A DNA stretch of 64,000 bases from Panorpa germanica (Eukaryota > Arthropoda > Insecta > Mecoptera > Panorpidae): contig OY783218.1 in assembly GCA_963678705.1 (NCBI GenBank), forward strand, positions 7,760,152 to 7,824,151, given 5' to 3'. The position numbers and the translations under genes are program-made. Below are positions 33,785 to 63,400 of this stretch, piece by piece. Below the pieces are notes generated by a model. It was not told where the DNA came from, made no database searches, and worked only from the letters and a program-made list of their open reading frames with translations. How positions within the stretch are numbered: the stretch's first letter is position 1; each line of letters begins with the position of its first letter.

Positions 33785-33990
33785 ACTAAATTACAATAGC
33801 AAATTAATTAATTACAATTAGCAAATATGACTTTTGGACCTTTTGTTGTTTGTCTCTAAATGAAAATTGAAACTTATGTATACAAAACAATAAAGATATT
33901 AACATCAAACAAAACTTCATAAATAAATCATAACCTTAAACATTAATTCCTAATAACACTGATTAATTGATTAATGATTGTATATTATAC

Positions 33991-34200
33991 CTTGTGTTAA
34001 TTATGTACGAACTGCGATTAATAAATGGACCTTGAATTATATTAATTGGAATATTTTATAATTATTCGTAAACACTAACAAATCGTGAGCCGAACAATAC
34101 AGAAGAACAAACTGTTAACTACTAAAATTATTGCGTGAGTTGAAATATTTCTTCTATGCACTGGTAAACTGGCTTTGTTTATTACGGAAAGACCTATCTG
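33991..34200 (-). other. Inferred non-coding first exon and promoter region of G1
   Basis: Its 3' end is the donor CACAAG/GTATAATATAC (minus strand) at 33991. The segment matches the equivalent regions of the other units in the order GCAGTTCGT, a CAGT...TT block, and an AAATATTTGT motif near its upstream edge. The upper boundary is a guess. Confidence 0.5.
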
Positions 34201-35344: not shown

Positions 35345-38300
35345 TCAATATCCCGGCCAGCCTCTACGGCCACCACCTCTGTAATTTCTGTTATTTCTAT
35401 TGTTTCCACGTTTTCCATGTTGTTGATTTCTCTGCGGATCTTGTTTCCCATCCCTTGGTAATGATGCCACTTCTTCTGTCTGGCGAGCATTGCTTTGTTG
35501 GGGTTTTCTTTGTCCTCTATTTGATGGATTATATGTATTTGTGAATCTTCCTGGTTGCTGGCGTGCACCACTGTTCCATCTCTGATCTTTCTGTTCTTCA
35601 CTATGTCGCATTGAATTATCATTTGTTGGAAATTGCGGTAGCTGTCTTGATACTGCCCCCTGTGCTCTCTGTTGTTCCAGTTTACTTTGGGTTTCTTCTC
35701 GGTGTGAAACTTTGTTTTCTGTTTTGTCCAATGGTTTCTTGGTTGGATTTATCTCTAGATCTTTTGATGTTGCCAACCGTTTTTTCTGTTGTACATCACT
35801 TTTTTTACCTTTTTCCAGCACTACTTCCTTTTTATCTTGGTTTTGTTCCTGTGCTTCTGACACTGCATCTTCATCCTCTAATGATAGCCTGGTTAGACAT
35901 ATCTCTAGATCTTTTGACGATTCCATCTGTGTTTTCTCTTCTTCATCACTTTCTTGATCTTCTTTCAGCACTGATTCCCCTTTATCTTGGTTTACGTGTT
36001 GTGCCTCTTGGTATTGTTCTTGAGTTTGTGACACTGCATCTTCATCTTTCAATGATAGCCTGGTTGGACTTATCTCTAGACCATTTGACGATTCCATCTG
36101 TGTTTTCTGTTCTTCATCACTTTCTTGAACTTCTTTCAGCACTGATTCTTCTTTATCTTGGTTTACATATTGTGCCTCTTGATATTGTTCTTGAGTTTGT
36201 GACACTGCATCTTCATCTTTCAATGATAGCCTGGTTGGACTTATCTCTAGACCATTTGACGATTCCATCTGTGTTTTCTGTTCTTCATCACTTTCTTCAA
36301 CGTCTTTCAGCACTGATTCCTCTTTATCTTGGTTTACGTGTTGTGCCTCTTGATATTGTTCTTGAGTTTGTGACACTGCATCTTCATCTTTCAATGATAG
36401 CCTGGTTGGACTTATCTCTAGACCATTTGACGATTCCATCTGTGTTTTCTGTTCTTCATCACTTTCTTGAACGTCTTTCAGCACTGATTCCTCTTTATCT
36501 TGGTTTACGTGTTGTGCCTCTTGATATTGTTCTTGAGTTTGTGACACTGCATCTTCATCTTTCAATGATAGACTGGTTGGACTTATCTCTAGACCATTTG
36601 ACGATTTCATCTGTGTTTTCTGTTCTTCATCACTTTCTTGAACTTCTTTCAGCACTGATTCCTCTTTATCTTGGTTTACATATTGTGCCTCTTGATATTG
36701 TTCTTGAGTTTGTGACACTGCACCTTCATCCTCTAATGATAGCCTGGTTGGACTTATCTCTAGACCATTTGACGATTCCATCTGTGTTTTCTGTTCTTCA
36801 TCACTTTCTTGAACTTCTTTAGACACTGATTCCTCTTTATCTTGGTTTACGTGTTGTGCCTCTTGATATTGTTCTTGAGTTTGTGACACTGCATCTTCAT
36901 CTTTCAATGATAGCCTGGTTGGACTTATCTCTAGACCATTTGAAGATTCCATCTGTGTTTTCTGTTCTTCATCACTGTCTTGAACATCTTTCAGCACTGA
37001 TTCCTCTTTATCTTGGTTTACGTGTTGTGCCTCTTGATATTGTTCTTGAGTTTGTGACACTGCATCTTCATCTTTCAATGATAGCCTGGTTGGACTTATC
37101 TCTAGACCATTTGACGATTTCATCTGTGTTTTCTGTTCTTCATCACTTTCTTGAACTTCTTTCAGCACTGATTCTTCTTTATCTTGGTTTACATATTGTG
37201 CCTCTTGATATTGTTCTTGAGTTTGTGACACTGCATCTTCATCTTTCAATGATAGCCTGGTTGGACTTATCTCTAGACCATTTGACGATTCCATCTGTGT
37301 TTTCTGTTCTTCATCACTTTCTTCAACGTCTTTCAGCACTGATTCCTCTTTATCTTGGTTTACGTGTTGTGCCTCTTGATATTGTTCTTGAGTTTGTGAC
37401 ACTGCATCTTCATCTTTCAATGATAGACTGGTTGGACTTATCTCTAGACCATTTGACGATTCCATCTGTGTTTTCTGTTCTTCATCACTTTCTTGAACAT
37501 CTTTCAGCACTGATTCCTCTTTATCTTGGTTTACGTGTTGTGCCTCTTGATATTGTTCTTGAGTTTGTGACACTGCATCTTCATCTTCCAATGATAGCCT
37601 GGTTGGACTTATCTCTAGATCATTTGACGATTCCATCTGTGTTTTCTGTTCTTCATCACTTTCTTGAACTTCTTTCAGCACTGATTCCTCTTTATCTTGG
37701 TTTACGTGTTGTGCCTCTTGATATTGTTCTTGAGTTTGTGACACTGCATCTTCATCTTTCAATAATAGCCTGGTTGGACTTATCTCTAGACCATTTGACG
37801 ATTCCTTATGTGTTTTCTGTTCTTTATCACTTTCTTGATCTTCTTTCAGCACTGATTCCTTATTATCTTGGTTTACATATTGTGCCTCTTGATATTGTTC
37901 TTGAATTTGTGACACTGCATCTTCATCCTCTAATGATAGCCTGGTTGGACTTATCTCTAGACCATTTGACGATTCCATCTGTGTTTTCTGTTCTTCATCA
38001 CTTTCTTGAACATCTTTCAGCACTGATTCCTCTTTATCTTGGTTTACGTGTTGTGCCTCTTGATATTGTTCTTGAGTTTGTGACACTGCATCTTCTTTTT
38101 TCAATGATAGACTGGTTGGACTTATCTCTAGACCATTTGACGATTCCATCTGTGTTTTCTGTTCTTCATCACTTTCTTGAACATCTTTCAGCACTGATTC
38201 CTCTTTATCTTGGTTTACGTGTTGTGCCTCTTGATATTGTTCTTGAGTTTGTGACACTGCATCTTCATCTTCCAATGATAGCCTGGTTGGACTTATCTCT

Positions 38301-40918
38301 AGATCATTTGACGATTCCATCTGTGTTTTCTGTTCTTCATCACTTTCTTGAACTTCTTTCAGCACTGATTCCTCTTTATCTTGGTTTACGTGTTGTGCCT
38401 CTTGATATTGTTCTTGAGTTTGTGACACTGCATCTTCATCTTTTAATGATAGCCTGGTTGGATTTATCTCTAGACCATTTGACGATTCCTTATGTGTTTT
38501 CTGTTCTTTATCACTTTCTTGATCTTCTTTCAGCACTGATTCCTTATTATCTTGGTTTACATATTGTGCCTCTTGATATTGTTCTTGAGTTTGTGACACT
38601 GCATCTTCATCCTCTAATGATAGCCTGGTTGGACTTATCTCTAGACCATTTGACGATTCCATCTGTGTTTTCTGTTCTTCATCACTTTCTTGAACTTCTT
38701 TCAGCACTGATTCCTCTTTATCTTGATTACCGTGTTGTGTCTCTTGATATTGTTCTTGAGTTTGTGACACTGCATCTTCATTCCCTAATGATAGCCTGGT
38801 TGGACTTATCTCTAGATCACTTGACGATTCCGTCTGTGTTTTCTGTTCTTCATCACTTTCTTGAACTTCTTTCAGCACTGATTCCTCTTTATCTTGGTTT
38901 ACGTGTTGTGCCTCTTGATATTGTTCTTGAGTTTGTGACACTGCATCTTCATCTTCCAATGATAGCCTGGTTGGACTTATCTCTAGATCACTTGACGATT
39001 CCATCAGTGTTTTCTGTTCTTCATCACTTTCTTGATCTTCTTTAGGCACTGATTCCTCTTTATCTTGGTTTACATATTGTGCCTCTTGATATTGTTCTTG
39101 AGTTTGTGACACTGCATCTTTATACTTTAATGATAGCCTGGTTGGACTTATTTCTAGATCATTTGATGATTGCATCAGTGTTTTCTGTTCTTCATCACTT
39201 TCTTGATCTTCTTTCAGCACTGATTCCTCTTTATCTTGGTTTACGTGTTGTGCCTCTTGATATTGTTCTTGAGTTTGTGACACTGCATCTTTATACTTTA
39301 ATGATAGCCTGGTTGGACTTATTTCTAGATCATTTGATGATTGCATCAGTGTTTTCTGTTCTTCATCACTTTCTTGATCTTCTTTCAGCACTGATTCCTT
39401 ATTATCTTGGTTTACAAGTTGTGCCTCTTGATATTGTTCTTGAGTTTGTGACACTGCATCTTTATACTTTAATGATAGCCTGGTTGGACTTATCTCTAGA
39501 TCATTTGATGATTGCATCAGTGTTTTCTGTTTTTCATCACTTTCTTGAACTTCTTTCAGCACTGATTCCTTATTATCTTGGTTTATATATTGTGCCTCTT
39601 GATATTGTTCTTGAATTTGTGACATTGAATCTTTATACTTTAATGATAGCCTGGTTGGACTTATTTCTAGATCATTTGATGATTGCATCAGTGTTTTCTG
39701 TTCTTCATCACTTTCTTGATCTTCTTTCAGCACTGATTCCTCTTTATCTTGGTTTACGTGTTGTGCCTCTTGATATTGTTCTTGAGTTTGTGACACTGCA
39801 TCTTTATACTTTAATGATAGCCTGGTTGGACTTATTTCTAGATCATTTGATGATTGCATCAGTGTTTTCTGTTCTTCATCACTTTCTTGATCTTCTTTCA
39901 GCACTGATTCCTTATTATCTTGGTTTACAAGTTGTGCCTCTTGATATTGTTCTTGAGTTTGTGACACTGCATCTTTATACTTTAATGATAGCCTGGTTGG
40001 ACTTATCTCTAGATCATTTGATGATTGCATCAGTGTTTTCTGTTCTTCATCACTTTCTTGAACTTCTTTCAGCACTGATTCCTTATTATCTTGGTTTATA
40101 TATTGTGCCTCTTGATATTGTTCTTGAATTTGTGACATTGAATCTTTATACTTTAATGATAGCCTGGTTGGACTTATTTCTAGATCATTTGATGATTGCA
40201 TCAGTGTTTTCTGTTCTTCATCACTTTCTTGATCTTCTTTCAGCACTGATTCCTTATTATCTTGGTTTACATGTTGTGCCTCTTGATATTGTTCTTGAGT
40301 TTGTGACATTGAATCTTTATACTTTAATGATAGCCTGGTTGGACTTATTTCTAGATCATTTGATGATTGCATCAGTGTTTTCTGTTCTTCATCACTTTCT
40401 TGATCTTCTTTCAGCACTGATTCCTTATTATCTTGGTTTACATGTTGTGCCTCTTGATATTGTTCTTGAGTTTGTGACACTGCATCTTTATACTTTAATG
40501 ATAGCCTGGTTGGACTTATCTCTAGATCATTTGATGATTGCATCAGTGTTTTCTGTTCTTCATCACTTTCTTGATCTTCTTTCAGCACTGATTCCTTATT
40601 ATCTTGGTTTACATGTTTAGCCGCTTTTTTTTGTTCCTGCTTTTGTGACACTGTTGTTTTTTCATTTATTTGTCTCCGTCTCTCTTCTTCCTCATTTTTT
40701 TGTACATTTTTATTTCCCGCCTCTGATTTTTTATTTAATGCGGTTTGATGTACTACTTGAGTTTCTACATTGTCTGATGTTTGTAGTTCTAATTGCTCAC
40801 GTGACATTTTCTTTGGATTTGTTTTGATTTCTTGTGGCGCATCCGTGTTGCGTGTTACTAGCCAGATTACGGTTACAATTATCACTATGATAATATATAA
40901 GATTATGATCACTAACAT
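35345..40918 (-). CDS. G2: giant membrane-anchored repeat protein, 1857 aa
   Basis: Unrecognised. The start at 40918 follows a splice acceptor (TTGTTTCAG/ATG); an upstream in-frame ATG reads through the intron. Residues 1-~24 form one very hydrophobic segment (MLVIIILYIIIVIIVTVIWL). A polar linker follows, then about 28 tandem copies of a 57-residue unit (consensus core AVSQTQEQYQEAQ, VNQDKEESVLK, ESDEEQKT, SSNGLEISPTRLSL), rich in E, D, Q, S and almost free of Cys. The last ~150 residues are R, G, N, Q-rich and end RNYRGGGRRGWPGY, like RNA-binding or phase-separating tails. The frame is intact through nearly 5.6 kb, so the protein is under selection or very young. The unit looks disordered or weakly helical. 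Role unknown. Confidence 0.8.
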   Translation of the reverse strand: MLVIIILYIIIVIIVTVIWLVTRNTDAPQEIKTNPKKMSREQLELQTSDNVETQVVHQTALNKKSEAGNKNVQKNEEEERRRQINEKTTVSQKQEQKKAAKHVNQDNKESVLKEDQESDEEQKTLMQSSNDLEISPTRLSLKYKDAVSQTQEQYQEAQHVNQDNKESVLKEDQESDEEQKTLMQSSNDLEISPTRLSLKYKDSMSQTQEQYQEAQHVNQDNKESVLKEDQESDEEQKTLMQSSNDLEISPTRLSLKYKDSMSQIQEQYQEAQYINQDNKESVLKEVQESDEEQKTLMQSSNDLEISPTRLSLKYKDAVSQTQEQYQEAQLVNQDNKESVLKEDQESDEEQKTLMQSSNDLEISPTRLSLKYKDAVSQTQEQYQEAQHVNQDKEESVLKEDQESDEEQKTLMQSSNDLEISPTRLSLKYKDSMSQIQEQYQEAQYINQDNKESVLKEVQESDEKQKTLMQSSNDLEISPTRLSLKYKDAVSQTQEQYQEAQLVNQDNKESVLKEDQESDEEQKTLMQSSNDLEISPTRLSLKYKDAVSQTQEQYQEAQHVNQDKEESVLKEDQESDEEQKTLMQSSNDLEISPTRLSLKYKDAVSQTQEQYQEAQYVNQDKEESVPKEDQESDEEQKTLMESSSDLEISPTRLSLEDEDAVSQTQEQYQEAQHVNQDKEESVLKEVQESDEEQKTQTESSSDLEISPTRLSLGNEDAVSQTQEQYQETQHGNQDKEESVLKEVQESDEEQKTQMESSNGLEISPTRLSLEDEDAVSQTQEQYQEAQYVNQDNKESVLKEDQESDKEQKTHKESSNGLEINPTRLSLKDEDAVSQTQEQYQEAQHVNQDKEESVLKEVQESDEEQKTQMESSNDLEISPTRLSLEDEDAVSQTQEQYQEAQHVNQDKEESVLKDVQESDEEQKTQMESSNGLEISPTSLSLKKEDAVSQTQEQYQEAQHVNQDKEESVLKDVQESDEEQKTQMESSNGLEISPTRLSLEDEDAVSQIQEQYQEAQYVNQDNKESVLKEDQESDKEQKTHKESSNGLEISPTRLLLKDEDAVSQTQEQYQEAQHVNQDKEESVLKEVQESDEEQKTQMESSNDLEISPTRLSLEDEDAVSQTQEQYQEAQHVNQDKEESVLKDVQESDEEQKTQMESSNGLEISPTSLSLKDEDAVSQTQEQYQEAQHVNQDKEESVLKDVEESDEEQKTQMESSNGLEISPTRLSLKDEDAVSQTQEQYQEAQYVNQDKEESVLKEVQESDEEQKTQMKSSNGLEISPTRLSLKDEDAVSQTQEQYQEAQHVNQDKEESVLKDVQDSDEEQKTQMESSNGLEISPTRLSLKDEDAVSQTQEQYQEAQHVNQDKEESVSKEVQESDEEQKTQMESSNGLEISPTRLSLEDEGAVSQTQEQYQEAQYVNQDKEESVLKEVQESDEEQKTQMKSSNGLEISPTSLSLKDEDAVSQTQEQYQEAQHVNQDKEESVLKDVQESDEEQKTQMESSNGLEISPTRLSLKDEDAVSQTQEQYQEAQHVNQDKEESVLKDVEESDEEQKTQMESSNGLEISPTRLSLKDEDAVSQTQEQYQEAQYVNQDKEESVLKEVQESDEEQKTQMESSNGLEISPTRLSLKDEDAVSQTQEQYQEAQHVNQDKGESVLKEDQESDEEEKTQMESSKDLEICLTRLSLEDEDAVSEAQEQNQDKKEVVLEKGKKSDVQQKKRLATSKDLEINPTKKPLDKTENKVSHREETQSKLEQQRAQGAVSRQLPQFPTNDNSMRHSEEQKDQRWNSGARQQPGRFTNTYNPSNRGQRKPQQSNARQTEEVASLPRDGKQDPQRNQQHGKRGNNRNNRNYRGGGRRGWPGY
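35860..40610. repeat. 171-bp coding minisatellite, ~28 units
   Basis: Each unit is 171 bp, exactly 57 codons. Units near the protein N-terminus carry LMQSSNDLEI and SLKYKD variants; those nearer the C-terminus carry TQMESSNGLEI and SLKDED. Blocks of three units (513 bp; e.g. the TTTATATATTGTGCC variants near 39.58 and 40.09 kb) and of four units are themselves repeated, which indicates repeated unequal exchange. Confidence 0.95.
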
Positions 40919-41708: not shown

Positions 41709-42084
41709 TAAGTATTTGACATAGTACCAGAGTGACAAAATATATAGTAATTTCAATATTATATAAGGGAATTTTTGTGATAAAGCCAATAGGTACCTAC
41801 AGTTTTATTTGCCAGGTAAGAAGTCCTCACCTATATGTTAACAAATTAAAGAAAGAAATGTAATTGCAGGTGAGAGGGAGATTTATGCAATAACAAACTA
41901 GTCGTGGAAAGAATAAAATACTTCAGGAAGGAGCGGATGGAGAGAAATAGGCCAGAAAGAAATAAACGGGACAGAAAACTGCGAAAAGGTTTTGGCATCT
42001 TTTCTTTTAACAAAAATATTGAAACATATTTAATGACACTTGCATTTTTAATCATACAACTTGAATAATTGAATGTATATTTAC

Positions 42085-42300
42085 CTTGTGACATTTATAA
42101 ACGAACTGCAATTATTAAAAATAACCTATAATTAAGATAATCAAATATTTTTTAATATTGAAACACTGCCAAACTGTGGCCTGGACATTATCGATGAATG
42201 ACAATTGAATACTGAAATAATTGTAAAGAAAGACGTTATTGCATTTTTATAAACAAAATTATTTAGCTTGAAATAAAGAAAATAATAATTGTTTACAAAT
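42085..42300 (-). other. Inferred non-coding first exon and promoter region of G2
   Basis: Donor CACAAG/GTAAATATAC (minus strand) at 42085, with GCAGTTCGT just upstream and an AAACACTGCCAAACTGTGG block near 42155 (plus strand) that recurs near G6 (52610). The part from 42123 upward was copied in the tandem duplication. Confidence 0.5.
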
Positions 42301-43142
42301 GAAACTAAAAGAACTAGTTGTATAAGAAGTGTTGAATTTTAGTGTTTAATTCTATGTTATATATAATTATACTTCTTTATAGATCCTATAAATGTTATAT
42401 ATCAATTCCTTTGACAATTCCCTTTGCAGAGGCACTATTTACATCTGAGGAAAAAATTATCACGTTCATTGGCATCATGATAGATTTGCATAAATTACTC
42501 CATAAGAAATCGCTTGTTAATCTTTTTCAATCAATACCTTTTCTAAATAAATCGACTTTCGGGTTAGATCTATCCGAGATTATCAATAAATCCATGGTTT
42601 TTCAAAAATGTTTTAATCTTTTTCTATGCTACTTGATAAGTGTTACATTTGTTTACAAGAATGTTTGTTTACACCAAATAAGGAAAACGGTACAATGACT
42701 TTACTCTTCAGTCAATAATTTATGTAAAATATATTATACAAAAACAATGAAAGATTTAACGTAAAATTTACATAACAGTGTTCAGCACGTTCTACATAAA
42801 AGACAAATAAAGCTTTTGAAATTATAAATTATTTTAATTGTTTCTATTGTTTACAACACGATAAAAATAATACACGATCACAATATGTGAACCTTTTAAT
42901 AAATTTAAGTACAATGAAATTTAACTCAACAATAAATACAACCGACAACAAAATGTGCAGCACATGTAATGGAGATGATACTAGCATTAGAAAATTAAGA
43001 ATTAGTATTTTTAAACCGTAAATTTAGTAATTTAATATGTACAAACTATTTTAAACTTTATTAAGATATAGTCAACAAACGTATATAACTTTTTGGTGAT
43101 TTTAATTTTGCATTTGGTTCGTTGATTGTTCTAGTTGTTAAT

Positions 43143-43397
43143 CTATAAAGGTGGATTACGTGTTTCTAATGCTCGACGTCTAATTTCCCGAATTGTTTCA
43201 ATTAGCTCTTGTTCATCGCGTTGTAGTTCTTCTTGGTATTCCGCCTCAGCTTCTTCAGCTAGCTCTGTTGCGGGTCTTCCTTGTACTTCCATCTGTCCTT
43301 GGTAAGTATTTAAATATCCTACTCTGTATAAAGCGTAGACGCAGACTGCCAGCAAAACTTCCACCATGCCAATAACTGCCACTAACCCAAATAACAT
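43143..43397 (-). CDS. G3: orphan membrane-anchored small protein, 84 aa
   Basis: Unrecognised. The start at 43397 follows the acceptor CTGTTGCAG/ATG. Residues 1-~25 are hydrophobic (MLFGLVAVIGMVEVLLAVCV), then a linker (YRVGYLNTYQGQMEVQG), then an acidic, helix-prone stretch (ELAEEAEAEYQEELQRDEQE), ending REIRRRALETRNPPL. The ending and anchor are shared with G4, the middle is not. The first exon is inferred at 43958-~44160. The intron carries a fragment of a non-LTR 3' end that predates the duplication. Confidence 0.72.
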   Translation of the reverse strand: MLFGLVAVIGMVEVLLAVCVYALYRVGYLNTYQGQMEVQGRPATELAEEAEAEYQEELQRDEQELIETIREIRRRALETRNPPL

Positions 43398-43439
43398 CTG
43401 CAACAGGATATAGTTATATATTATGTAAGAAGAAGAAGA

Positions 43440-43680
43440 AAATGAGAAAGACGTAGGCAATGAAGAGGAAGATAAAGAAGATCTGGATAATAAGGAGGAG
43501 GAGGAAGATAATGAAAACGATGATGAGGAGGTGGAATCAGAGGATGAATAACAACGAAACCAAAAAGAGAAAACAAGAAGAGAACGAAGTTAGCAGAAGG
43601 AATCAAACGGAAATTTATGTTAATGTAATTTGCGGGGCAGAAAGAGGACCGTGTCCCTAAGAAGTCCATCAAATTATATA
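43440..43680 (+). mobile_element. Non-LTR 3' fragment in the intron of G3
   Basis: A purine-rich stretch (GAAGAGGAAGATAAAGAAG...) ends with GGGGCAGAAAGAGGACC and CCCTAAGAAGTCCATC, comparable to the tail at 22320-22377, followed by a short TA run. It is also present in the G4 intron (46330-46560). Confidence 0.6.
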
Positions 43681-43957
43681 TATGTAAGGTTTATTTAACA
43701 TAAACAAGTTTACCTATTACAAAACATTTTTAGGTTAGATTAGGTCTTTGGACATAAATTTACATTTTCTGATGTTGATTCCGATTGTAACATTGTTACA
43801 GAATCATGTTAGACTTCGATAAATAATAAAGAAACGTTATGTAAAAAATATTACAAACCACGTGTTTTTTTAAAAAGAAGCTTATTTTTCATCTTTGAAG
43901 TATACTTTTGTGTTTAGCGGAATTGTAATTTGGTTAATTTAGTGTATATTTTTGTAC

Positions 43958-44160
43958 CTTGTCTTAATTGTGGACGAACTGCGGTTACTAATTACTGGCT
44001 AAAGATATAATTAATTAATTATCTTATAGTAAACAAACACAATGAAACTCTGGCTTTATCAACACTGAAGGAGAATAATTTGAAATGATTTTTGCCGTAG
44101 ATATGTCTTTTGTGCTATCAAACAAGTCTTCAGCATGCAAGAGGGCTGTGTTTTGAAATC
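43958..44160 (-). other. Inferred non-coding first exon and promoter region of G3
   Basis: Donor GACAAG/GTACAAAAAT (minus strand) at 43958, with GCAGTTCGTCCACAATTAAG upstream. Near the upper edge the minus strand reads AAATATTTGTTGATTTC followed by AAAACACAGCCCTC. The same region in G4 (46843-47050) is almost identical. Confidence 0.55.
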
Positions 44161-44331
44161 AACAAATATTTATTGTTTACAATTTATACAAGAACCTATA
44201 ATTAAGATAACTAAATATTTTATAATAATGAAACACTGCCAAACTGTGGTCTGGACGTTATCGATGAATGACAATTGAATACTGAAATAATTGTAAAGAA
44301 AGACGTTATTGCATTTTTATAAACAAAACTA

Positions 44332-45184
44332 CCCAGTAAACATTTTGGAGTAAATTCTACTTAATTTCTATTACATATCATGAGTTTTTTGTCTGGAACG
44401 CGTTCGTTTTCTTTTCAGTCGTTCATAGGAAAGGCCCTTTTTATGACCTACAGAGATCGCAATGACGGTTCACTGCTGAATTAAAAGCGGAGTTGGTTTA
44501 TGATTTATGACCGGAGTTATAAACTTGACACTAGCAGGGGTATAAAACTTAATAGAATTCTACTTTTTAGAGTCTGCAAAATATAAATATTTAAATAAAG
44601 AAATAAATAGATGTAATCTTTAGTACGGATCGTGATTTCTTTAATGAATATTATTCATCTTCAACAATACTCGTTATATTAGTTTTTTACATTGTTTTGG
44701 TAATTCAAAAATCCACGATTGGCAGGTCTGCGTTAGGTTTAAAACCTCTGTCTTACCATCGCTAGATTCTATCTTCGTTTATATACATTTTATTCGGGGA
44801 TTGAGGGAGATAGCGTCTGTCTATTACCATTAAAAAAATATTTGTTGAAAAAGGATAGCATATACTTTAAGCATACTCTCCTGAACGAAATACTTTACAA
44901 GTATACAAGCGTAACGGTGAAAAATATATTTTACTTGTCTAACCGCATCTCGTTTCTCTCTCACTTTGGAATAAATGAGATGAAAATGAACCTAAACAAA
45001 AATATATCCATGTGGGAAAGAAATAGAAATACTTAATGAATGATGTTGGAAAAAGAAAGAATATTATTATGAAAAACTAACACAAAATCTGTGACAGGTA
45101 GAGAACTTGTAAAGCGCTAGAATAGAATTGTACGAGTGACTCGAACTTCACCAAATAGGGCACTTCACCAAATTGTTTACTGGG
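44332..45184 (+). mobile_element. TA-target MITE (family 2), full 853-bp copy
   Basis: CCCAGTAAACATTTTGG to CAAATTGTTTACTGGG, flanked by TA on both sides. The paralogous site in duplication copy 1 (~42250) is empty and has a single TA, so both insertion and target duplication are visible directly. No transposase frame seen. Confidence 0.93.
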
Positions 45185-46067
45185 TAATTAGGTTGAAATA
45201 AAGAAAATAGTCATTGTTTACGAATGAAACTAAAAGAAATAGTTGTATAAGAAGTGTTGAATTTTAGTGTTTAATTCCATGTTATATATAATTATACTTC
45301 TTTATAGATCCTATAAATGTTATATATCAATTCCTTTGGCAATTCTCTTAGCAGAGGCACTATTTACATCTGAGATAAAAATTATCACGTTCACTGGCAT
45401 CATGCTAGATTTGCATAAATTATTCCATAAGAAATCGATTGTTAATCTTTTTCAATCAATACTTTTTCTAAATAAATCGACTTTTGGGTTAGATCTATCC
45501 GAGATTATCAATAAATCCATGGTTTTTTAAAAATGTTTTAACCTTTTCCTATGCTACTTGATAAGTGTTACATTTGTTTACAAGAATGTTTGTTTACACC
45601 AAATAAGGAAAAAGGCACAATGACATTACTCTTCAGTCAATAATTTATGTAAAATATATTATACAAAAACAATGAAAGATTTAACGTAAAATTTACATAA
45701 CAGTGTTTAGCACGTTCTACATAAAAGACAAATAAAGCTTTTGAAATTATAAATTATTTTAATTGTTTCTATTGTTTACAACACGATAAAAATAATACAC
45801 GATCACAATATGTGAACCTTTTAATAAATTTAAGTACAATGAAATTTAACTCAACAATAAATACAACCGACAACAAAATGTGCAGCACATGTAATGGAGA
45901 TGATACTAGCATTAGAAAATTAAGAATTAGTATTTTTAAACCGTAAATTTAGTAATTTAATATGTACAAACTATTTTAAACTTTATTAAGATATAGTCAA
46001 CAAACGTATATAACTTTTTGGTGATTTTAATTTTGCATTTGGTTCGTTGATTGTTCTAGTTGTTAAT

Positions 46068-46295
46068 CTATAAACGTGGATTACGCCTTCCTAAAGCTCT
46101 GCGTCTTATTTCCCGCATTATTCGAGTTAGCTCTCGTTCGCGTTGTCGTTCCTCTTCGGTTCTTCTTTGTCCGGTTCTTCGCATCCGTCTTGCAAAAATA
46201 TAGTCTGAATTACGTATTCCGTAGGTGTAGACTGCCATGAGGATTAACACTTCGATCATGCCAATAATATACAATACCACTAACCAATATAACAT
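46068..46295 (-). CDS. G4: orphan membrane-anchored small protein, 75 aa
   Basis: Unrecognised; tandem duplicate of G3. The start at 46295 follows the acceptor CTGTTGCAG/ATG. Residues 1-~25 are hydrophobic (MLYWLVVLYIIGMIEVLILM), then AVYTYGIRNSDY, then an arginine-rich tail (ARRMRRTGQRRTEEERQRER) ending MREIRRRALGRRNPRL. The G3 tail is acidic in the same place, so charge reversed after duplication. First exon inferred at 46843-~47050. Confidence 0.72.
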   Translation of the reverse strand: MLYWLVVLYIIGMIEVLILMAVYTYGIRNSDYIFARRMRRTGQRRTEEERQRERELTRIMREIRRRALGRRNPRL

Positions 46296-46329
46296 CTGCA
46301 ACAGGATATAGTTATATACTCGTACGTGT

Positions 46330-46560
46330 AAGGAGAAGAAGAGAATGAAGAGGAAGATAAAGAAGATCTGGATAATAAGGAGGAAGAGGAAGATAATGAA
46401 GACTATGATGAGGAGGTGGAATCAGAGGATGAATAACAACGAAACCAAAAAGAGAAAACAAGAAGAGAACGAAGTTAGCAGAAGGAATCAAACGGAAATT
46501 TATGTTAATGTAATTTGCGGGGCAGAAAGAGGACCGTGTCCCTAAGAAGTCCATCAAATT
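46330..46560 (+). mobile_element. Non-LTR 3' fragment in the intron of G4
   Basis: Duplicate of the fragment at 43440-43680, with the same CCCTAAGAAGTCCATC end and TA run. Copied with the segmental duplication rather than inserted again. Confidence 0.6.
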
Positions 46561-46842
46561 ATATATATGTAAGGTTTATTTAACATAAACAAGTTTACCT
46601 ATTACAAAACATTTTTAGGTTAGATTAGGTCTTTGGACATACATTTACATTTTCTGATGTTGATTCCGATTGTAACATTGTTACAGAATTATGTTAAGCT
46701 TCGATAAATAATAAAGAAACGTTACGTAAAAAATATTACAAACCACGTGTTTTTTTTAAAAAGAAACTTATTTTTCATCTTTGAAGTATACTTTTGTGTT
46801 TAGCGGGATGTAATTTGGTTAATTGAGTGTATATTTTTGTAC

Positions 46843-47050
46843 CTTGTCTTAATTGTGGACGAACTGCGGTTACTAATTACTGGCTATAGATATAATTAAT
46901 TAATTATCTTATATAATTAAACAAACACAATGAAACTCTGACTTTAACAACACTGAAGGATAATAATTTGAAATGATTTTTGCAGTAGATATGTCTTCTG
47001 TGCTATCAAACAAGTCTTCTGCTTGTAAGAGGGCTGTGTTTTGAAATCAA
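46843..47050 (-). other. Inferred non-coding first exon and promoter region of G4
   Basis: Near-identical copy of the G3 first-exon region, with donor GACAAG/GTACAAAAAT at 46843. Confidence 0.55.
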
Positions 47051-47341
47051 CAAATATTTATTGTTTACAATTTATACAAATGAAACTTTAAAATATAGTT
47101 GATCATAATATTACAAGATAGTTTAAATTGCAAAAAATATTATTAAAAAGTTTTAAACAAAAATATATTGGTGTAATGAACTACTCAACAGGTCAAGTAC
47201 TGTCCTTTAATTTGATAATAAAGAATTCTTAAATAACTTCTCTCTAAGAAATTCTCTCAGTGCTGACAGTTTATGACAATTTATCCGCAATAATATCCTG
47301 GAATTGAGTAGTGAACTTATTAATTAAGGGACAATTTCTTA

Positions 47342-47971
47342 ATGGGTTTGTGGTTTTTACTGGTCGATTTTTCTATTGTTGATTGAAATTGATGTTAATA
47401 AATGTGTATAGGCGCGTCTATTTTATTAAATATCTAAATGTTGACGGAGATATAGCAATTAAAAGTTTGAATTGTAGTTTTAGCAATAGAAATGTTCGGC
47501 CATATTTGTATGACGTGAAATGCATTTTAACGTCAGTTATTTGTTGAGTAGGTCAGTGCTGTAGTAATGTTCCTCAGCTGTTAGTAGTCAAATAATCAAG
47601 TCAAGTAAAGAATAGTAAGTTTCTATTTTATTTAACCCTGCTAAGGTAGACATAATATTGAAATTTTATTGTTCGTTGAAATATCTGTAAATAATATTTG
47701 ATATTTTGATATATAAATACAAATAGCAGAGATTTATGAGCTGTAAGGTTGGTAACCTTACACAAGGATTGTGATGTCACATGCAGTTGGAATGTGTACA
47801 ACGTTGAATCCCTTTAATAATTAAAGAGACAATATGACTTTTTTAATTGGTAATATCTCTTAACATATACGGAGTTATTAAAAAATAATTGAACATTTGA
47901 GGTTCTAGTAACCCACTTTATCAATATATCATACAGTTTTATAGAAATTAAGATATAGGACACAAGCCCAT
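47342..47971 (+). mobile_element. MITE family 1, copy 8
   Basis: ATGGGTTTGTGG at the left (altered terminus) and GGACACAAGCCCAT at the right, 630 bp, interior typical. It lies between the G4 first exon and the 3' end of G5. Confidence 0.88.
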
Positions 47972-48506
47972 TCTTTTTTAAACGACGTCATTATATGAAA
48001 ACTTTGACATTTGATTGTGCATCTCTTTTACACTTCTCTTGTTTAACGGCGATAGCTAATGGTAGTGAGGCAGAGGGTAATAATTGAAATGATGGTAATT
48101 AGATGGTCAAAAGTGGGTATTTCAATCGTTAATAACTTTTTACAATATTGCGGATCCAATTGTCCTTCAATGATGTATCTTCTTTCACAAATTATCTACT
48201 ATATTTTCATATGTAATAAAAACACTTTTTTGTAATTTATAAATAAAATATATTAAACGAATTACTAATTATAATTTTAATTTATAAAACATGATGACTC
48301 TTTCAACAGCTTAATAATGTTTTATACTTAAGTTAAGATTATTAAGATAATAAAAGTAATAATTATTACCGCGGAATTATTATTTTTTCTTAATCTGTAC
48401 GTGTTGTCCTTTTGTCGCTTTTATTGCATCATAAATTTGTCATTTTTTTGGTCTGGCATGTGTTCGTTCCAAATTTTCCGTCAACCGTCTCTGATTCTGC
48501 AGGTAC

Positions 48507-48761
48507 CTATGCTGGCCCAGGTTCGTCCGGTAATGCATTTGTTCCTGATTCTACTTCTTCTTTTTCTAATTTTGCTAGTTTCTCTTTTAATTCAGCTATT
48601 TCGCTCTCTTTTACCGATATTTTTGCTTGATACTCTAATATCTTCATTCGCCTGACAAGTAACGATTCATGCGGTTCTCTTTCCTGGGTTTGAATTCGTT
48701 CTGATTGGTTTCCCACATTATATTTGCGTTTAGGTTTAGGTTTTGGATTTATAGGAAACAT
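48507..48761 (-). CDS. G5: possible family member without membrane segment, 84 aa
   Basis: Unrecognised and less certain. The frame starts at 48761 (MFPINPKPKPKRKYNVG), 28 bases after a plausible acceptor (CAATTATTTCAG/G at 48790). Instead of a hydrophobic segment the protein begins basic and proline-rich, then forms a charged, coiled-coil-like helix (KESEIAELKEKLAKLEKEE). A first-exon-like block lies upstream at 49736-~49900, which ties it to the block. A family 1 MITE (48909-49418) sits in the intron. It may have lost the segment encoding the anchor, or be a decaying copy. Confidence 0.45.
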   Translation of the reverse strand: MFPINPKPKPKRKYNVGNQSERIQTQEREPHESLLVRRMKILEYQAKISVKESEIAELKEKLAKLEKEEVESGTNALPDEPGPA

Positions 48762-48908
48762 TCTCAAACGTAAAGTAGTAATATTTTTCCTGAAATAATT
48801 GATCAAACCATATGTCTTCAAATGTATTTTACCACTTTCAATGGACACAGAGAAATGAGAAATTTAAATCCAATGTTATTCCTTGTAATTTTACTTGTTT
48901 TTACAGCA

Positions 48909-49418
48909 ATGGGCTTGTGTCCTATGTCTTAATTTCTTTAAAAGTGTACTATATATTAATAAAGTTGGTTACTAGAACCTCAAATGTTCAATTATTAGAC
49001 ATCACAACCGCTGCCAAACTTACAGATCATAAATCTCTGCTATATGTATTTATATATCAAAATATCAAATATTATTTACTGTTATTTCAAGGAACAATAA
49101 AATTTCAATATTATGTCTGCCTTAGCAGGATTAAATAAAATAAAAACTTATTATTCTTTGATTTGACTTGATTATTTGACTACCAACAGCTACAAAACAT
49201 TACCACAGCACTGACCTACTCAACAAATATCTGACATTAAAATGCTTTACACGTCATACAAATATGGCCGACCATTTCTAGCGCTAAAACTACAATTCAA
49301 ACTTTTAATTGCTAAATCTCCGTCAATATTTAGATATTTAATAAAATAGACACGGCAATACACATTTATTAACATCAATTGAAAAATCGACTACTAAAAA
49401 ATGAGGACACAAGCCCAT
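48909..49418 (-). mobile_element. MITE family 1, copy 9 (5' intron of G5)
   Basis: ATGGGCTTGTGTCC to GGACACAAGCCCAT, 510 bp; internally deleted relative to the ~630-bp copies (the section around the TTGTCTCTTTAATTA block is missing). Confidence 0.9.
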
Positions 49419-49735
49419 TGATGTGAAGATGAATACATTTTTATTTCTTAAACTTTAACTTGAATTTTTAGTAACATAATGTTTATGTAAGGTTTATCTA
49501 ACATTTCCAGTTATGTAAACAGTTTTACATAACAGTTTTTTTGAAGAGTTACTTTTTTTTTAATCCACTAAGTTTTAATAACGATTAAAGAAAAAAAGGT
49601 TTATAGAATGGTTTTAAAAATAGCTATAAAATATAAATGAAGACCACTGTAGATTAAATATTAGTTAATACTGGCACATTTATGTTTTGGCTTTAGCAGG
49701 ATTACAATTTGGTAAATTTAGTTTATGCATTGTAC

Positions 49736-49900
49736 CTTTTGTTGGTTGTGACGAATTGTGGTTGCTAATTACTGGCGAAAATATAGGTAATTATATATCT
49801 TACTATAATCAAACACTGTGAAACCGCATTTGCCTTAACAATACTGGAAGAGAATAATTTTGTATTCAAATGATTCAAACCGGTCTTCTAATTGTTAAAG
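49736..49900 (-). other. First-exon-like region upstream of G5
   Basis: Minus strand AAAAG/GTACAATG donor at 49736 and, upstream, CAATTCGTCACAACC, plus AAACACTGTGAAACC on the plus strand near 49810, related to the G2 and G6 first exons. More diverged than the G3/G4 pair. Confidence 0.4.
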
Positions 49901-51970: not shown

Positions 51971-52524
51971 ACAACAATTTGTTTCAGATTCAGATAAACT
52001 ATCCGTTTATTGGATATGACTATTCTGCTAAATTTGAAATCGAATCACAGTCTAATTTGGGAGCTGATCTAATCGTCTTAAAAGTGTAATATACATAACG
52101 GTCGTCCAGTTAATTAATAAGATATCTCTGACAAAATTATCTGCATTTGGTTTTCATTTATGACATAGACTCAGATGGATAATGGATAATATGCTTTTAG
52201 GCATAACTGTATATTTAAGTTAATTTTCTGTTTTTCGAGGATGTATCATCACGAGAGCAAATGCAGACAAAATCCTTGAAACTCTCGCGGTTTTTAAGAA
52301 AATGTTGTTAGACAATGGAGCACATAATATCAACAAATTATCTTTAATTTGATTAAAATAAACAATAAATAAATTAACTGTGGAATATTAACCTAAAGCA
52401 AACTAACCTTGAAAACTTATCAATGTAAATTTATTGATACTGTTAATAAAACATTTAAATTGATTGTTTTGACTTTTGTACTTTTTAATAACATTTGTTT
52501 CTTGATTAATAAATTATGTTTTTA

Positions 52525-52730
52525 CCTTGTATAGATTGTAGACAAACTTATTGGTTTTGTTTAATTAATTGCTAAAAGCAAGGTTCTTTTATCAATGCTA
52601 ATTATCAAACACTGCGAATCTGTGGTCTTCACAGTACTGAAGAAGAATAGTTCTGTATTGAAATGAATCTTTGAAGAGGAATGTCTTTTGTACAGTGCCG
52701 CATCTAGCCAACGTTTTTAAATTTTCATAA
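52525..52730 (-). other. Inferred non-coding first exon and promoter region of G6
   Basis: Donor ACAAG/GTAAAAAC (minus strand) at 52525. The block near 52605-52690 (CAAACACTGCGAATCTGTGG, AGTACTGAAGAAGAATAG, GAATGTC) recurs upstream of G2, G3/G4 and G5. Confidence 0.5.
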
Positions 52731-57421: not shown

Positions 57422-60400
57422 ATGATTAGCACAATTTGTTCAAAGTGTTATACCTTCAAGAAGAAATCAATTTTTCTTAAAGTATCGTCAATTTATTGTA
57501 AAAAGTAAGTGGTTTTAGTTTTTAATATATTTATAATTAGTGTAGCTTTAAGGGAAATGAAAAAGCTGACTAAATGGCCGAACTAGCTGCTTCCTGTGAT
57601 AACTATATTTCATATTTTATAAAATCAGATATGAAAGCAGAATTAGAAAAAAATGAAATGAAAAATTGGCAAGACAAGTGGGATAATTCTGATAAAGGAA
57701 GAGAATTTTATAAAATACAACCAATACTGAGACGTAAGCCATGGTTTGCCAAATTAACATGGTCAAGGAGATTAATAACAATGACCTCAAGACTAAGAAT
57801 GAATCATACTAGAGCTCCGAAACATCTAGCAAGAAACAAAATCATTCTAAACTCTAAATGCGAATGTGGTGAAGAGGAGGCAGATTCTGATCACATTCTG
57901 TAGCAATGTAAAAATACAGCAATGCAAGAAATGGACTCCAAAGGGCGGTGCTACAGACTTCGCAGACGCTTCCTGTTAACACCCCCTTTTTGATTGAGAA
58001 ACCGAAATTTATAACTGCAGTAGCCATAAATAGATCATTCTTGTTGTCTGGATATAACGTATAAGAAGAAGCAGAATAATATTAGGGCGATAAAAGGCTA
58101 CGTGCCTAGGAAGCCCGACAAACTATATTAAAAAAAAAAAAATTAGTGTATCTTACTTAAGGAATCAGTAAAACGCTAATCTGCGCAATTTATCTTAAAA
58201 TCCTAAACGCAAGTCCCCCGCTCAAAGTAAAATATGGGTAGTACCTTAAAATCATGTAACATTTTACGTTAAATTTCAGCACTTCTGAAGAATATCTGTT
58301 TTACGATTACGAAAGTATTAAAATAAACCTTGCGCACGTTAAACAAATTAAATAAATTAGACCAGATTAGATTTTTTGAAATTAATTAATTTAACAACTA
58401 TTTCCAAAGCGGCATCCTATCACCGACGACATCCTACTGTGTTAGCAACTTACTAAGTTAATGATTTATATTTTCATAATCAATTTAACTTCGAATCCGA
58501 AGATACAGCAGATTACCCTCTGGTGTTAATACCGTTGCCCACTGTGTCGTCAAAAATATTATATATTACATAACATTTTTATGTTAGAAAAACATTTAAA
58601 ACACATAACTGATAAAAAAAATATTTTGATGCAGTTTCAGCTCTGTACCTCCGAATATATCGAAACTTGAAAAACGTTCTCCGAGCTATATCCACAAAGT
58701 AGGGCAGGAGCCGTTACTGTACCGCACTCTAGGGCAAGAACTTTCTCTGGCAGCAGAACGTTTTGGGAATCGCGACTGCCTTGTTTCCATGCATGAAGGG
58801 ATACGCTATACTTTTGCCGAAATCAATGAAAAGGTAAAACTCCTTTTAGAAATCACAGAATTCAAAATTCTTCTTCAAGAAAATTAGATTAATTGAAAGC
58901 AAAGTAGTTCGTTATTTGTTCCACCAAAAACAATCCTTTATCAGCACACGAAATACAGATTTTTTTATTGTTTTAAAATTACGAAAGTAGCGTCGCTAAA
59001 AGCATTGTAACTTGTAAACTAATGGTTGAAATGTCATGAAATTTTGACACATATCGTTTGAAAATTGGTACTATCTAAATATGTCACCTATATATCACCT
59101 TACAAACTTATTGAGTAATTTATAGTTTTAAAATTGAATTAATAGAGTAGGGTCGGTAGCGCGGGGGGCCGTTCTTAAGGTAATTTAAAACTACAGAGCG
59201 TGTTTTTAAATATTAGATGTGTCAAGCCAAATACTTCCATTAAATATTCAAGACACATATTTTAATTTAATAAAGTAATTAAAATTTGAAATGAAACTTT
59301 GCGATGGTACAACACTAATGTGGTGTACTTTTATAGAAATTATATGATTTGATTGCAATTAAAGGTAAATCAACTTGCTTCGGGATTCATCAGCCTTGGA
59401 TTAAAGAAAGGAGATCGACTTGGAATTTGGTCTCCAAATTACTCTTATTGGTACATATCTTATCTGGCAGCTGTACGCGCTGGACTTATCTTGGTGAGTG
59501 CGGCACATTTCTTAGCATCTTCCACATCTTAACTAATTTCTTATTCAGGTCGCCATCAATCCAGCTTACAAAGCAGACGAAATAACAGGATGCATCAACA
59601 AAGTCGGCATAAAAGCTATTATAGCACCTGGATCATTTAAGACACAAAACTTTTACAAAATACTGCATAAACTAGCACCGGAATTGTCTTCTAGTGAACC
59701 AGGATATCTAAAAACTAAGAAACTCCCTTCATTGTCTACCGTTATCATAGCTGCCGAACAATATTTACCGTAAAATATATTCCAAAAGATTGTCATAACA
59801 GCTTGTCATTCATTAAGTAAAAAATATTTATCTTCCAGGGGAGCTGTCAGATTTACCGATATCGCAACTCTTTCAGATGATGAATCCATGAATAAACTTA
59901 CCGACTTGCAGGAAGCAATAAGTCCTGATGACGGCAGTACTGTGTTATATTCTTCAGGAACAACTGGAGATCCTAAAGCGATACTTTTATCGCATTTTAG
60001 TTTGGTAAATAGCGCCCACGTTGGCAGCAGACGTTTAGGGTTTGCTGACAAACGCCACATTATTTGCGGTACTGTTCCTTTCTTCCACATCTTCGGAATT
60101 TTAGGAAGCATTTGTTATACACTGGTAAATGGAGCAACGTTAGTCTTACCTGCTCCACATTTTAATGCAACAGATGCTCTGTTAGCCATCAAGAAAGAAA
60201 AGTACTTATACTCATTTCATAATTTTCAAAACAAGTCTATATTTTGTTAGTAAATTCAATCTGCATTAGGTGCACGACTCTGTACGGGACCCCTACTATG
60301 TTCGTTAATATAATTGACAAGCAAAAGGATGAAGATATTCCTGTAACTACGCTGGAGAAAACATTTTGTGGGGGAGCACCATGCTCACCATATTTATTCA

Positions 60401-63400
60401 AGCAAATGAAAGATATCCTTCATGTTAAAACTGTCAATGTAAGTAAGAATTATCCTACTACGCATTGTATAAACAGCTTGTATACAAACAGCATATCAAT
60501 TGCAGTCCAGTTATGGAATGACCGAAACTTGTGGCACAATTTTCCAATCGCTTCCTGGAGAATCGATATCTGATGCTCTGAATACGGTTGGGTCAATTAT
60601 GGACCATACAGAAATGAAAGTCGTTGATCACGATGGAAATATAGTACCAACGGGAACCCCTGGAGAGCTGTGGTGCAGATCTTACAGCAATATGAAATGT
60701 TACTTCAATGATGACAAGAAAACTTCTGAAATACTTACACGTGAAGGATGGCTAAAAACCGGGTAAGAAATTTTTGAAACATATATTCCTCCGAAAATAT
60801 TTATAAGTGAATATTTTTAATTTTTACTGTCTATTATTATGTTATATTTCTCAGAAGGTAATAGCAATTTATAAATTACGACGCCTGGTCCGCATGCTTC
60901 TATAATTACACATACATAAATACACAACATTTTTAACAATCTTTAATCTAAAGAAACGCAGAAAATATTATTTTTAATAAAATTTCAAATATTACATTTT
61001 TATCAATTTTAACAAGAGTATTATAACCTTCTTACATCTAAAGAAATACAGAAAATTCTATTTTTTCTAAAATTGAAAATATTAAAATTTTATCAATTTT
61101 AACAATAGTATAACCTTCTTTTATGAAATATTAAGTGGAAAATTTATGATTTTTTAAAGTCTAAAACTGAACCTTTTCATAATTTTTAACAAGATTATAG
61201 TCTTCTTTCGTTGAAAAAATAACAGAAATTTTATGATTTTTTAAAATTTAAAACTGAATCTTTTCATCATTTTTAACAAGATTATAGTCTTCTTTCGATG
61301 AAAAAATAACAGAAAATTTATGATTTTTTAAAGTCTAAAACTGAACCTTTTCATCATTTTTAACAAGATTATAGTCTTCTTTCGATGAAAAAATAACAGA
61401 AATTTTATGATTTTTTAAAATTTAAAACTGAATCTTTTCATCATTTTTAACAAGAGTATAACCTTCTTTCGTTGAAAAAATACCAGAAAATTTATGATTT
61501 TTTAAAGTTTAAAACTGAATCTTTTCATCATTTTTAACAAGATTATAGTCTTCTTTCGATGAAAAAATAACAGAAAATTTATGATTTTTTAAAGTCTAAA
61601 ACTGAACCTTTTCATCATTTTTAACAAGATTATAGTCTTCTTTCGATGAAAAAATAACAGAAATTTTATGATTTTTTAAAATTTAAAACTGAATCTTTTC
61701 ATCATTTTTAACAAGATTATAGTCTTCTTTCGTTGAAAAAATAACAGAAATTTTATGATTTTTTAAAATTTAAAATTCAACTTTTTTATCATTTTTAACA
61801 AGAGTATAACCTTCTTTCGTTCAAAAAATAACAGAAAATTTATGATTTTTTAAAGTCTAAAACTGAACCTTTTCATCATTTTTAACAAGAGTATAACCTT
61901 CTTTCGTTGAAAAAATAACAGAAAATTTATGATTTTTTAAAGTTTAAAACTGAATCTTTTCATCATTTTTAACAAGATTATAGTCTTCTTTCGATGAAAA
62001 AATAACAGAAATTTTATGATTTTTTAAAATTTAAAACTGAATCTTTTCATCATTTTTAACAAGATTATAGTCTTCTTTCGTTGAAAAAATAACAGAAATT
62101 TTATGATTTTTTAAAATTTAAAATTCAACTTTTTTATCATTTTTAACAAGAGTATAACCTTCTTTCGATGAAAAAATAACAGAAAATTTATGATTTTTTA
62201 AAGTCTAAAACTGAACCTTTTCATCATTTTTAACAAGATTATAGTCTTCTTTCGATGAAAAAATAACAGAAATTTTATGATTTTTTAAAATTTAAAACTG
62301 AATCTTTTCATCATTTTTAACAAGATTATAGTCTTCTTTCGTTGAAAAAATAACAGATAATTTATGATTTTTTAAATTTTAAAATTGAATTTCTTCTTCA
62401 TTTTTAACAAGAGTATAACCTTCTTTCGTTGAAAAAATAACAGAAAAGTTATGATTTTTTAAAGTTTAAAACTGAATCTTTTCATCATTTTTAACAAGAT
62501 TATAGTCTTCTTTCGTTCAAAAAATAACAGAAAATTTATGATTTTTTAAAGTCTAAAACTGAACCTTTTCATCATTTTTAACAAGAGTATAACCTTCTTT
62601 CGTTGAAAAAATAACAGAAAATTTATGATTTTTTAAAGTCTAAAATTGAACCTTTTCATCATTTTTAACAAGATTATAGTCTTCTTTCGTTGAAAAAATA
62701 CCAGAAAATTAATGATTTTTTAAAGTTTAAAACTGAATCTTTTCCTCATTTTTAACAAGAGTATAACCTTCTTTCGTTGAAAAAATATCAGAAAATTTAT
62801 GATTTTTTAAAGTCTAAAACTGAATCTTTTCATCATTTTTAACAAGAGTATAACCTTCTTTCACCTCAAGAAATGCAGAAAATCTATTTTTATATATAAT
62901 AAATAATAATAATAATGTATAACCTACTTACATCTCAAGAAATGGAGAAAATCCTGTTTTTGCTAAAACTAAAAATATTAAATTTTTATCAATTTTAACA
63001 AGAGTATAACCTTCTTACATCTTAAGAAATGGAGAAAATCCTTTGTTTACTAAAATTAGAAATACAACATTTTTATCAAAGTTAACAAGTTAACCTTCTT
63101 ACTTCTCAAGAAATACAGAAAATATTGTTTTTTATAAATTAAATCTCGTGGTTAAATTAAGATCTCTTTCTATCCAGTGGTAATAACGTATAAAGCAACA
63201 TTGAATAAAGTTTAAAGCAAGCCTACTTATACAAAGTAAAAATGAAATTGAGCCTGGGTAATGTTAAATATCTTTTGACTACTTTTGTATTCTGACACTG
63301 CATATAGAAAATCATTAAAGTAATAAACGAAGGTTTGAAAAAGTTTGTATATATATTTGTATTGTGTAGTAACTTACTAAATTATGTATCCTATCCCTTG

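Follow-up and report, generated by a model that had tools for sequence, protein, structure and literature searches.

A strongly diverged coding exon between near-identical flanks in a tandem gene pair of Panorpa germanica

In primate opsin genes the introns have been converted and one exon is divergent, which has been attributed to selection restricting conversion (PMC3924837). Converting duplicates in Drosophila show high divergence at the edges of the converted blocks (PMC2588116), and in the Tigriopus genes GOT1p1 and GOT1p2 regions of high divergence persist despite gene conversion (PMC3728101). The SSSGP-1 genes of the Hessian fly, which are clustered and code for secreted proteins, have conserved non-coding and diverged coding sequence, and the authors propose positive selection together with homogenisation (PMC2955719). 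Here, we describe a comparable pair of genes, G3 and G4, in a window of 64,000 nucleotides from Panorpa germanica (assembly GCA_963678705.1, contig OY783218.1, positions 7,760,152 to 7,824,151 of the forward strand; positions below are counted from the first base of this window). The two genes are a tandem duplication with near-identical non-coding surroundings and strongly different coding exons, and these exons separated before their surroundings did.

A global alignment of both tandem units was made with MAFFT, leaving out an insert of 853 base pairs (bp) in the second unit. The duplicated unit is 2,070 bp long and has sharp ends; the unit coordinates, the insert and the protein lengths (84 and 75 residues) that the original prediction had read from the letters of the window were all right (Table 1). 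Divergence, measured as mismatches per aligned site between the G3 and G4 units, varies strongly along the alignment. It is 4.5% in the distal 3' flank (30/660), 0.3% in the proximal 3' untranslated region (3'UTR; 1/360) and 30% in the coding exon (64/216, with a further 51 gap columns). The acceptor-side intron has 9 mismatches at 48 sites and 13 gap columns (61 columns in all), followed by the inner intron with 1% (3/297) and by the outer intron, leader and promoter with 4.4% (19/436). Exon and proximal 3'UTR differ in mismatch rate with a Fisher p of 3e-29, and divergence is lower in the inner than in the outer flanks, on the 3' side (p 3e-5) as well as on the intron side (p 0.008). The contrast between island and flanks is well beyond chance.

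Long runs of identity border the peak. One of 366 bp extends through the inner 3'UTR and over seven bases at the coding end, up to a point within the second-last codon; its 359 flank sites were reached in none of 20,000 permutations of 31 mismatches over 1,020 sites. On the intron side, no run is longer than one of 237 sites (permutation p 0.004, 22 mismatches over 733 sites). Near-identical flanks around a strongly differing exon had been predicted, and proper alignment bears this out, coding and flank divergence being far from equal (30% versus 0.3-4.5%). The predicted sharp boundary of the coding exon is also present as a step, but the island does not stop there: an identical stretch of 23 bp at the acceptor is followed by 38 bp of diverged intron, and only then does the intron become 99% identical again. 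Similarly, the intron and first-exon region, thought to be almost identical, is so in the inner intron but not in the outer intron, leader and promoter, and the flanks are thus not uniform. Low divergence (0.3-4.5%) around a sharp peak (30%), with identity runs resembling tracts beside it (359 and 237 sites), is the arrangement of an opsin-type divergence peak.

The exon has changed as coding sequence does. Its four indels, as placed by the nucleotide aligner, are 3, 36, 6 and 6 bases long, each a multiple of three, so that both reading frames have been kept; such frame-preserving indels, together with silent changes in a shared motif, are expected of protein-coding DNA. Rates at silent (dS) and replacement (dN) sites were estimated from a nucleotide-informed codon alignment of 71 codon pairs and from a MAFFT protein alignment of 73 pairs, codons opposite gaps being dropped. 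The former gave dS 0.42 (interval 0.21-0.71), dN 0.36 (0.25-0.51) and dN/dS 0.88 (0.44-1.92), the latter dS 0.58, dN 0.45 and dN/dS 0.77 (0.41-1.41). Silent sites of the exon are diverged at 16 of 50.2, versus 53 of 1753 flank sites (Fisher p 6e-12), and old silent sites inside the peak are a further property of opsin-type peaks. Because the middle of the exon lacks a secure alignment, the C-terminal 27 codon pairs were also used alone; here 5 of 20.8 synonymous sites differ, versus 4 of 657 proximal (p 2e-6) and 49 of 1,096 distal flank sites (p 0.002). The motif REIRRRAL has four silent and no replacement changes over its eight codons. The high dS of the exon, these silent changes and the diverged 38 bp of intron together show that the exon pair is older than its flanks.

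Exon and flanks thus have different histories, which supports recombination, whether the flanks were homogenised or an exon was replaced. The original prediction had offered very strong diversifying selection or exchange of the exon as the cause. Exchange fits the greater age of the exon; selection as sole cause does not agree with a dS of 0.42 and a dN/dS of 0.88. The ratio is not well below 1, a result that would have refuted the original prediction, nor does the G3/G4 pair demonstrate a value above 1; with an interval that passes 1 and reaches 1.92, some positive selection is still compatible with the data. Selection is probably needed to keep the two exons apart.

We think it rather likely that G3 and G4 are old, diverged versions of one small gene, the flanks of which have been homogenised by gene conversion and/or unequal exchange with the exon being spared. 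The copies apparently kept exchanging non-coding DNA while holding two different proteins. In such an old tandem pair, exchange between the units would have homogenised the non-coding surroundings and would have halted at the coding exon, where 30% heterology might be a poor substrate for strand exchange. Selection would then remove those conversions that make one protein into the other, and the two tails, attached to similar membrane segments and under the same promoter, might bind different partners. Conversion or unequal exchange acting on old tandem genes explains both the gradient from inner to outer flanks and the sharp step at the exon. On both inner sides divergence falls to 0.3-1%, against 4.4-4.5% at the edges of the unit, and the non-coding DNA within the island is diverged as well.

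Several points weigh against this reading. The two outer flanks have each diverged by about 4.5%, and the partial G2-promoter copy at the very edge of the unit is no exception (95% identical). This is explained most simply if the whole unit was duplicated at that time, in which case the exon pair, with its dS of 0.42, came from elsewhere. K1 and K3, two genes of a cluster with the same promoter on C21 (see below), have no comparable island, as BLAST gives 72% identity for a piece from promoter to intron and 71% for one that extends into the coding exon. To date, only G3 and G4 have the sharp island, and the reading is based on two copies in one assembly.

The similar divergence of the outer flanks (4.4-4.5%, and about 5% in the edge promoter copy) is what would be seen had the unit been duplicated fairly recently and one copy then been given a diverged exon by ectopic conversion or crossing-over. 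The exon and the 38 bp of intron would be a single old block under this explanation, which we regard as possible rather than probable. No donor was found: protein and DNA searches of the 464-Mb assembly gave no near-identical third copy of either exon, and a recent donor should be nearly identical unless it was lost or allelic. With the G3 exon as query, G4 was the sole relative in both kinds of search. The G4 protein found G3 (E value 0.18) and one weak match on C95 (E value 0.50, 21% identity), and the DNA of the G4 exon found only G3 besides itself. As the protein searches with G3 and G4 find each other only at E values of 7.9 and 0.18, an old and diverged donor would be missed by them. Taken alone, replacement of an exon does not account for the closer similarity of the inner flanks. 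Long-lived balanced alleles of the exon, put side by side by unequal crossing-over between haplotypes, are another conceivable origin. They would make the exon older than the duplication without a third locus, but linked neutral sites should then be most diverged beside the exon, where they are in fact least diverged, and later conversion of the flanks would still be required; we consider such an origin improbable.

Diversifying selection on amino acids, acting alone after a recent duplication and leaving the rest unchanged, would account for the exon being the strongly diverged part, with a tail whose middle has gone from acidic to arginine-rich, and the dN/dS interval does reach 1.92. It predicts a dS near the flank level (0.003-0.045) and a dN far above dS, whereas dS is 0.42 (0.58 in the second alignment) and dN/dS 0.88 (0.77). 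With silent changes in an unchanged motif and an island that takes in intron, this explanation is very unlikely; in the form of point mutations under diversifying selection as the sole cause, it is rejected, since synonymous sites are diverged, REIRRRAL has changed silently and part of the island is intron. A locally raised mutation rate in the exon and the intron end would agree with dN being close to dS and with an island spanning the exon/intron border. However, transitions and transversions (32:32 in the exon, 32:21 in the flanks, compared as raw counts) give no clear signature of it, and purifying selection is visible in the REIRRRAL motif, so that we give it hardly any credence. The same is true of an assembly artefact, such as two haplotypes laid in tandem. 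The tandem order does rest on the assembly and not on individual reads, but the unit is only 2 kb long, it ends sharply inside the G2 promoter, one copy has an insert, and the whole unit is on no other contig among the 42 matches listed (40 of 758 candidates were scored).

The coding exons of G3 and G4 start with ATG directly at the predicted acceptor, and the leader is non-coding, since an in-frame TAA stands just before the predicted splice. The G3 protein has a hydrophobic start of 24 residues with no basic residue before its end, followed by a highly charged tail, and a glutamate in the hydrophobic start is common to both proteins (IGM[V/I]EVL). As originally noted, the middle of the tail is acidic in G3 and arginine-rich in G4. 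The hydrophobic start is itself diverged, with the residue kept in 13 of 27 aligned codons at 70% DNA identity, so the pair does not have a conserved secretion-signal part before a diverged mature part. To judge from their hydrophobicity, the G3 and G4 proteins are apparently membrane-anchored. The positive-inside rule would place the arginine-rich tail of G4 on the cytosolic side. No match above the cut-off (gathering score) was obtained in Pfam for the proteins of G1, G3, G4, G5, G6 and the C21 loci L009 and L039. Our best guess is that the family is a co-expressed set of membrane anchors, the tails of which bind different partners. A purine-rich segment of the G3/G4 intron (43426-43582) has many similar sequences elsewhere in the genome, with identities of about 73-83%.

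G3 and G4 belong to a cluster of six genes on the minus strand that have in common a promoter and a short leader with a predicted donor AAG/GTA (the slash marks the splice; CAAG/GTA in five, AAAG/GTA in G5). TATAA is found at the aligned place in G1, G3 and G4 and in altered forms in the other genes, and five of the six, not G5, resemble each other at the 3'UTR end, where they have an AATAAA or ATTAAA hexamer. The promoter-leader block is similar in all 15 gene pairs of the window (z at least 5.6); the window profiles of promoter, leader and 3'UTR were built from the very sequences that they then found. Among the window genes, the whole intron is common to G3 and G4 only. The AG/ATG junction of predicted splice site and start codon recurs in G1, G2 and G6 as well as on C21, both in the relative of G2 and in the cluster, but is absent from G5; the recurrence is a biased observation for the C21 cluster, where coding exons were looked for as AG/ATG frames.

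Table 1. Positions of the tandem units, their parts and the other cluster genes in the window.
Feature	Position	Strand	Basis or remark
Tandem unit 1: G3 and part of G2 promoter region	42123..44192	-	repeat search and MAFFT alignment
Tandem unit 2: G4 and 853-bp insert	44193..47080	-	repeat search and MAFFT alignment
853-bp insert, in unit 2 only	44332..45184		first 358 bp 95% identical to 18630-18996
G3 coding exon (predicted), 84 residues	43143..43397	-	ATG right after TTGCAG, hydrophobic start, charged tail
G4 coding exon (predicted), 75 residues	46068..46295	-	layout as G3, arginine-rich tail
Island of divergence, G3	43150..43458	-	alignment; almost whole coding exon, identical 23-bp acceptor stretch, 38 bp of diverged intron
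Island of divergence, G4	46075..46343	-	alignment
366-bp identical run, G3 side	42784..43149	-	identical to 45709-46074; spans 3'UTR, stop and last codons plus one further base
237-bp identical intron run, G3 side	43520..43756	-	identical to 46405-46641
G3 promoter (TATAA) and short leader exon	43930..44110	-	predicted donor CAAG/GTA
G4 promoter and leader exon	46815..46997	-	
G3 3'UTR	42791..43145	-	end block (ATTAAA hexamer) common to G1, G2, G4, G6; BLAST to G1 and G6, alignment, hexamers
G4 3'UTR	45716..46070	-	alignment
Second copy of part of G2 promoter	44193..44331	-	95% identical; G2 leader outside duplicated unit
G1 promoter and leader	33963..34142	-	
G1 coding exon (predicted), 108 residues	32657..32983	-	
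G2 promoter and leader	42061..42238	-	
G2 coding exon (predicted), 1857 residues from CAG/ATG	35345..40918	-	hydrophobic start, many 57-residue (171-bp) repeats, RGG-rich end
G5 promoter and leader	49709..49885	-	
G5 coding part (predicted), 84 residues	48507..48761	-	no hydrophobic start; multi-copy repeat between coding part and promoter
G6 promoter and leader	52502..52687	-	
G6 coding exon (predicted), 82 residues	51560..51808	-	

Relatives of the cluster were found on C21. One is a G2-like gene for a repetitive protein of 441 residues (L009 5846-8675; C21:1,394,345-1,397,174). Its promoter region is 85% identical to that of G2 across 244 bp. A further match of 227 bp at 77% identity takes in the final 170 bp of the intron together with 57 bases at the start of the coding sequence, and the 3' end is 71% identical over 146 bp; other coding matches are short and repetitive. 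In the G2-promoter copy between G3 and G4, 25 bp (44212-44236) are identical to the promoter core of this C21 gene, and G2's own promoter differs there. The repeats of G2 have long open frames on the opposite strand as well. A second cluster at C21:30.59-30.61 Mb (L070, L039, L071) has three promoters with the same promoter-leader block and frames of 195, 107 and 443 residues (K1, K2 and K3) that look coiled-coil-like by eye. By inspection, the hydrophobic start is missing in these three and in G5, the protein of which resembles two members of the C21 cluster (z 9.1 and 6.6).

Over these ten members, promoter-leader similarity reaches a z of 5, an arbitrary line, in 45/45 pairs (lowest 5.6), and protein similarity over the first 120 residues does so in 8/45, a contrast that is biased toward the promoter because the members were chosen for the promoter block, the three C21-cluster promoters having been found with a profile of the others. 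These genes might be a family with a constant cassette and a variable exon, in which the promoter and non-coding leader stay fixed, the leader is spliced straight to the ATG of the coding exon, and the coding exons behind it are exchanged or reshaped as a whole. One cluster would then code for membrane-anchored tails and another for soluble proteins of a coiled-coil-like kind, all presumably co-expressed; we put this forward as a doubtful suggestion.

A mobile element carrying the promoter was considered and rejected. Exact matches to the leader pattern are found only at G1, G2, G3, G4 and G6, and exact matches to the promoter pattern only at G3, the G2-promoter copy and two C21 members. Totals that tolerate mismatches are near those of a reversed control (leader 23 and 13 versus 22 and 28; promoter 40 and 48 versus 29 and 47) and are therefore mostly due to chance. 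A candidate on C19 (L038) was dropped, as only 29 bp fit the profile (E value 1e-3). DNA searches with a single promoter are insensitive: that of G5 matched only itself, despite being 76% identical to that of G3. In the surroundings of the cluster there are AMP-binding genes (acyl-CoA synthetase or luciferase-like) in pieces (4239-31816 and 59888-60573), one piece of which was checked against Pfam. A multi-copy repeat at 47387-49380 has copies at about 3.5-14.4 kb and 33.2-35.1 kb, in both orientations, and is also present in the C21 cluster. No exact run of seven TTAGG or TCAGG units was found on either strand of the whole genome.

In G3 and G4, recombination has apparently homogenised all but a coding exon, which makes the pair a compact natural example of this process in a family without a known domain; the sharpness of the step at the exon should allow the limit of exchange to be mapped. 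Conserved non-coding with variable coding sequence might be read as runaway positive selection, which would be wrong here because the silent sites are equally old. If sister species confirm the pattern, G3 and G4 would be well suited to measurements of conversion and of the selection that opposes it. The common promoter-leader block provides a handle for finding members with proteins diverged beyond recognition.

Among the papers listed by literature searches aimed at families with a conserved promoter and variable coding part, none was a match, judged by titles or the beginnings of abstracts, which is no proof of absence. Among the systems described, the Hessian fly SSSGP-1 genes, which the original prediction had aptly named for comparison, are clustered tandem genes with conserved promoter, UTRs and intron and a diverged protein-coding part (PMC2955719). 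The cluster of G3 and G4 resembles them in part, all six genes having the promoter-leader block, five the 3'UTR end and only G3 and G4 the whole intron. Unlike in G3/G4, the part coding for their signal peptide is conserved and the products are secreted (PMC2955719), whereas no coding part of G3/G4 is strongly conserved and the proteins look membrane-anchored. Moderately diverged Hessian fly pairs have a dN/dS above 1, compared with 0.88 (0.44-1.92) for G3/G4, and those ratios were taken on pairs with 80-95% identity, the G3/G4 pair having 70% (PMC2955719).

The original prediction had seen no description of the pattern for membrane-anchored proteins of this type, but among membrane proteins the opsins and a Drosophila major facilitator pair provide examples (PMC3924837, PMC2588116). 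G3 and G4 resemble the primate red and green opsins in an intron that has apparently been homogenised, in a coding exon that is kept apart and in a peak of divergence between the paralogues; in opsins, however, the peak is tied to two functionally important residues, whereas G3 and G4 differ over the whole exon, by 30% and indels (PMC3924837). The Drosophila genes CG18281 and CG17637 code for membrane proteins, as G3 and G4 apparently do, with conversion between the duplicates and divergence peaks in the coding region, and were analysed with orthologues, whereas G3/G4 are known from the paralogues alone (PMC2588116). GOT1p1 and GOT1p2 of Tigriopus also have high divergence alongside conversion, but these are enzyme genes compared across populations and G3/G4 come from one assembly (PMC3728101). 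Distinctive in G3/G4 are the lack of any strongly conserved coding part, an island that crosses the intron border, and a wider family that has mainly the non-coding part in common. The pair belongs to a known kind of evolutionary pattern, of which it is a striking variant, and its family is unusual.

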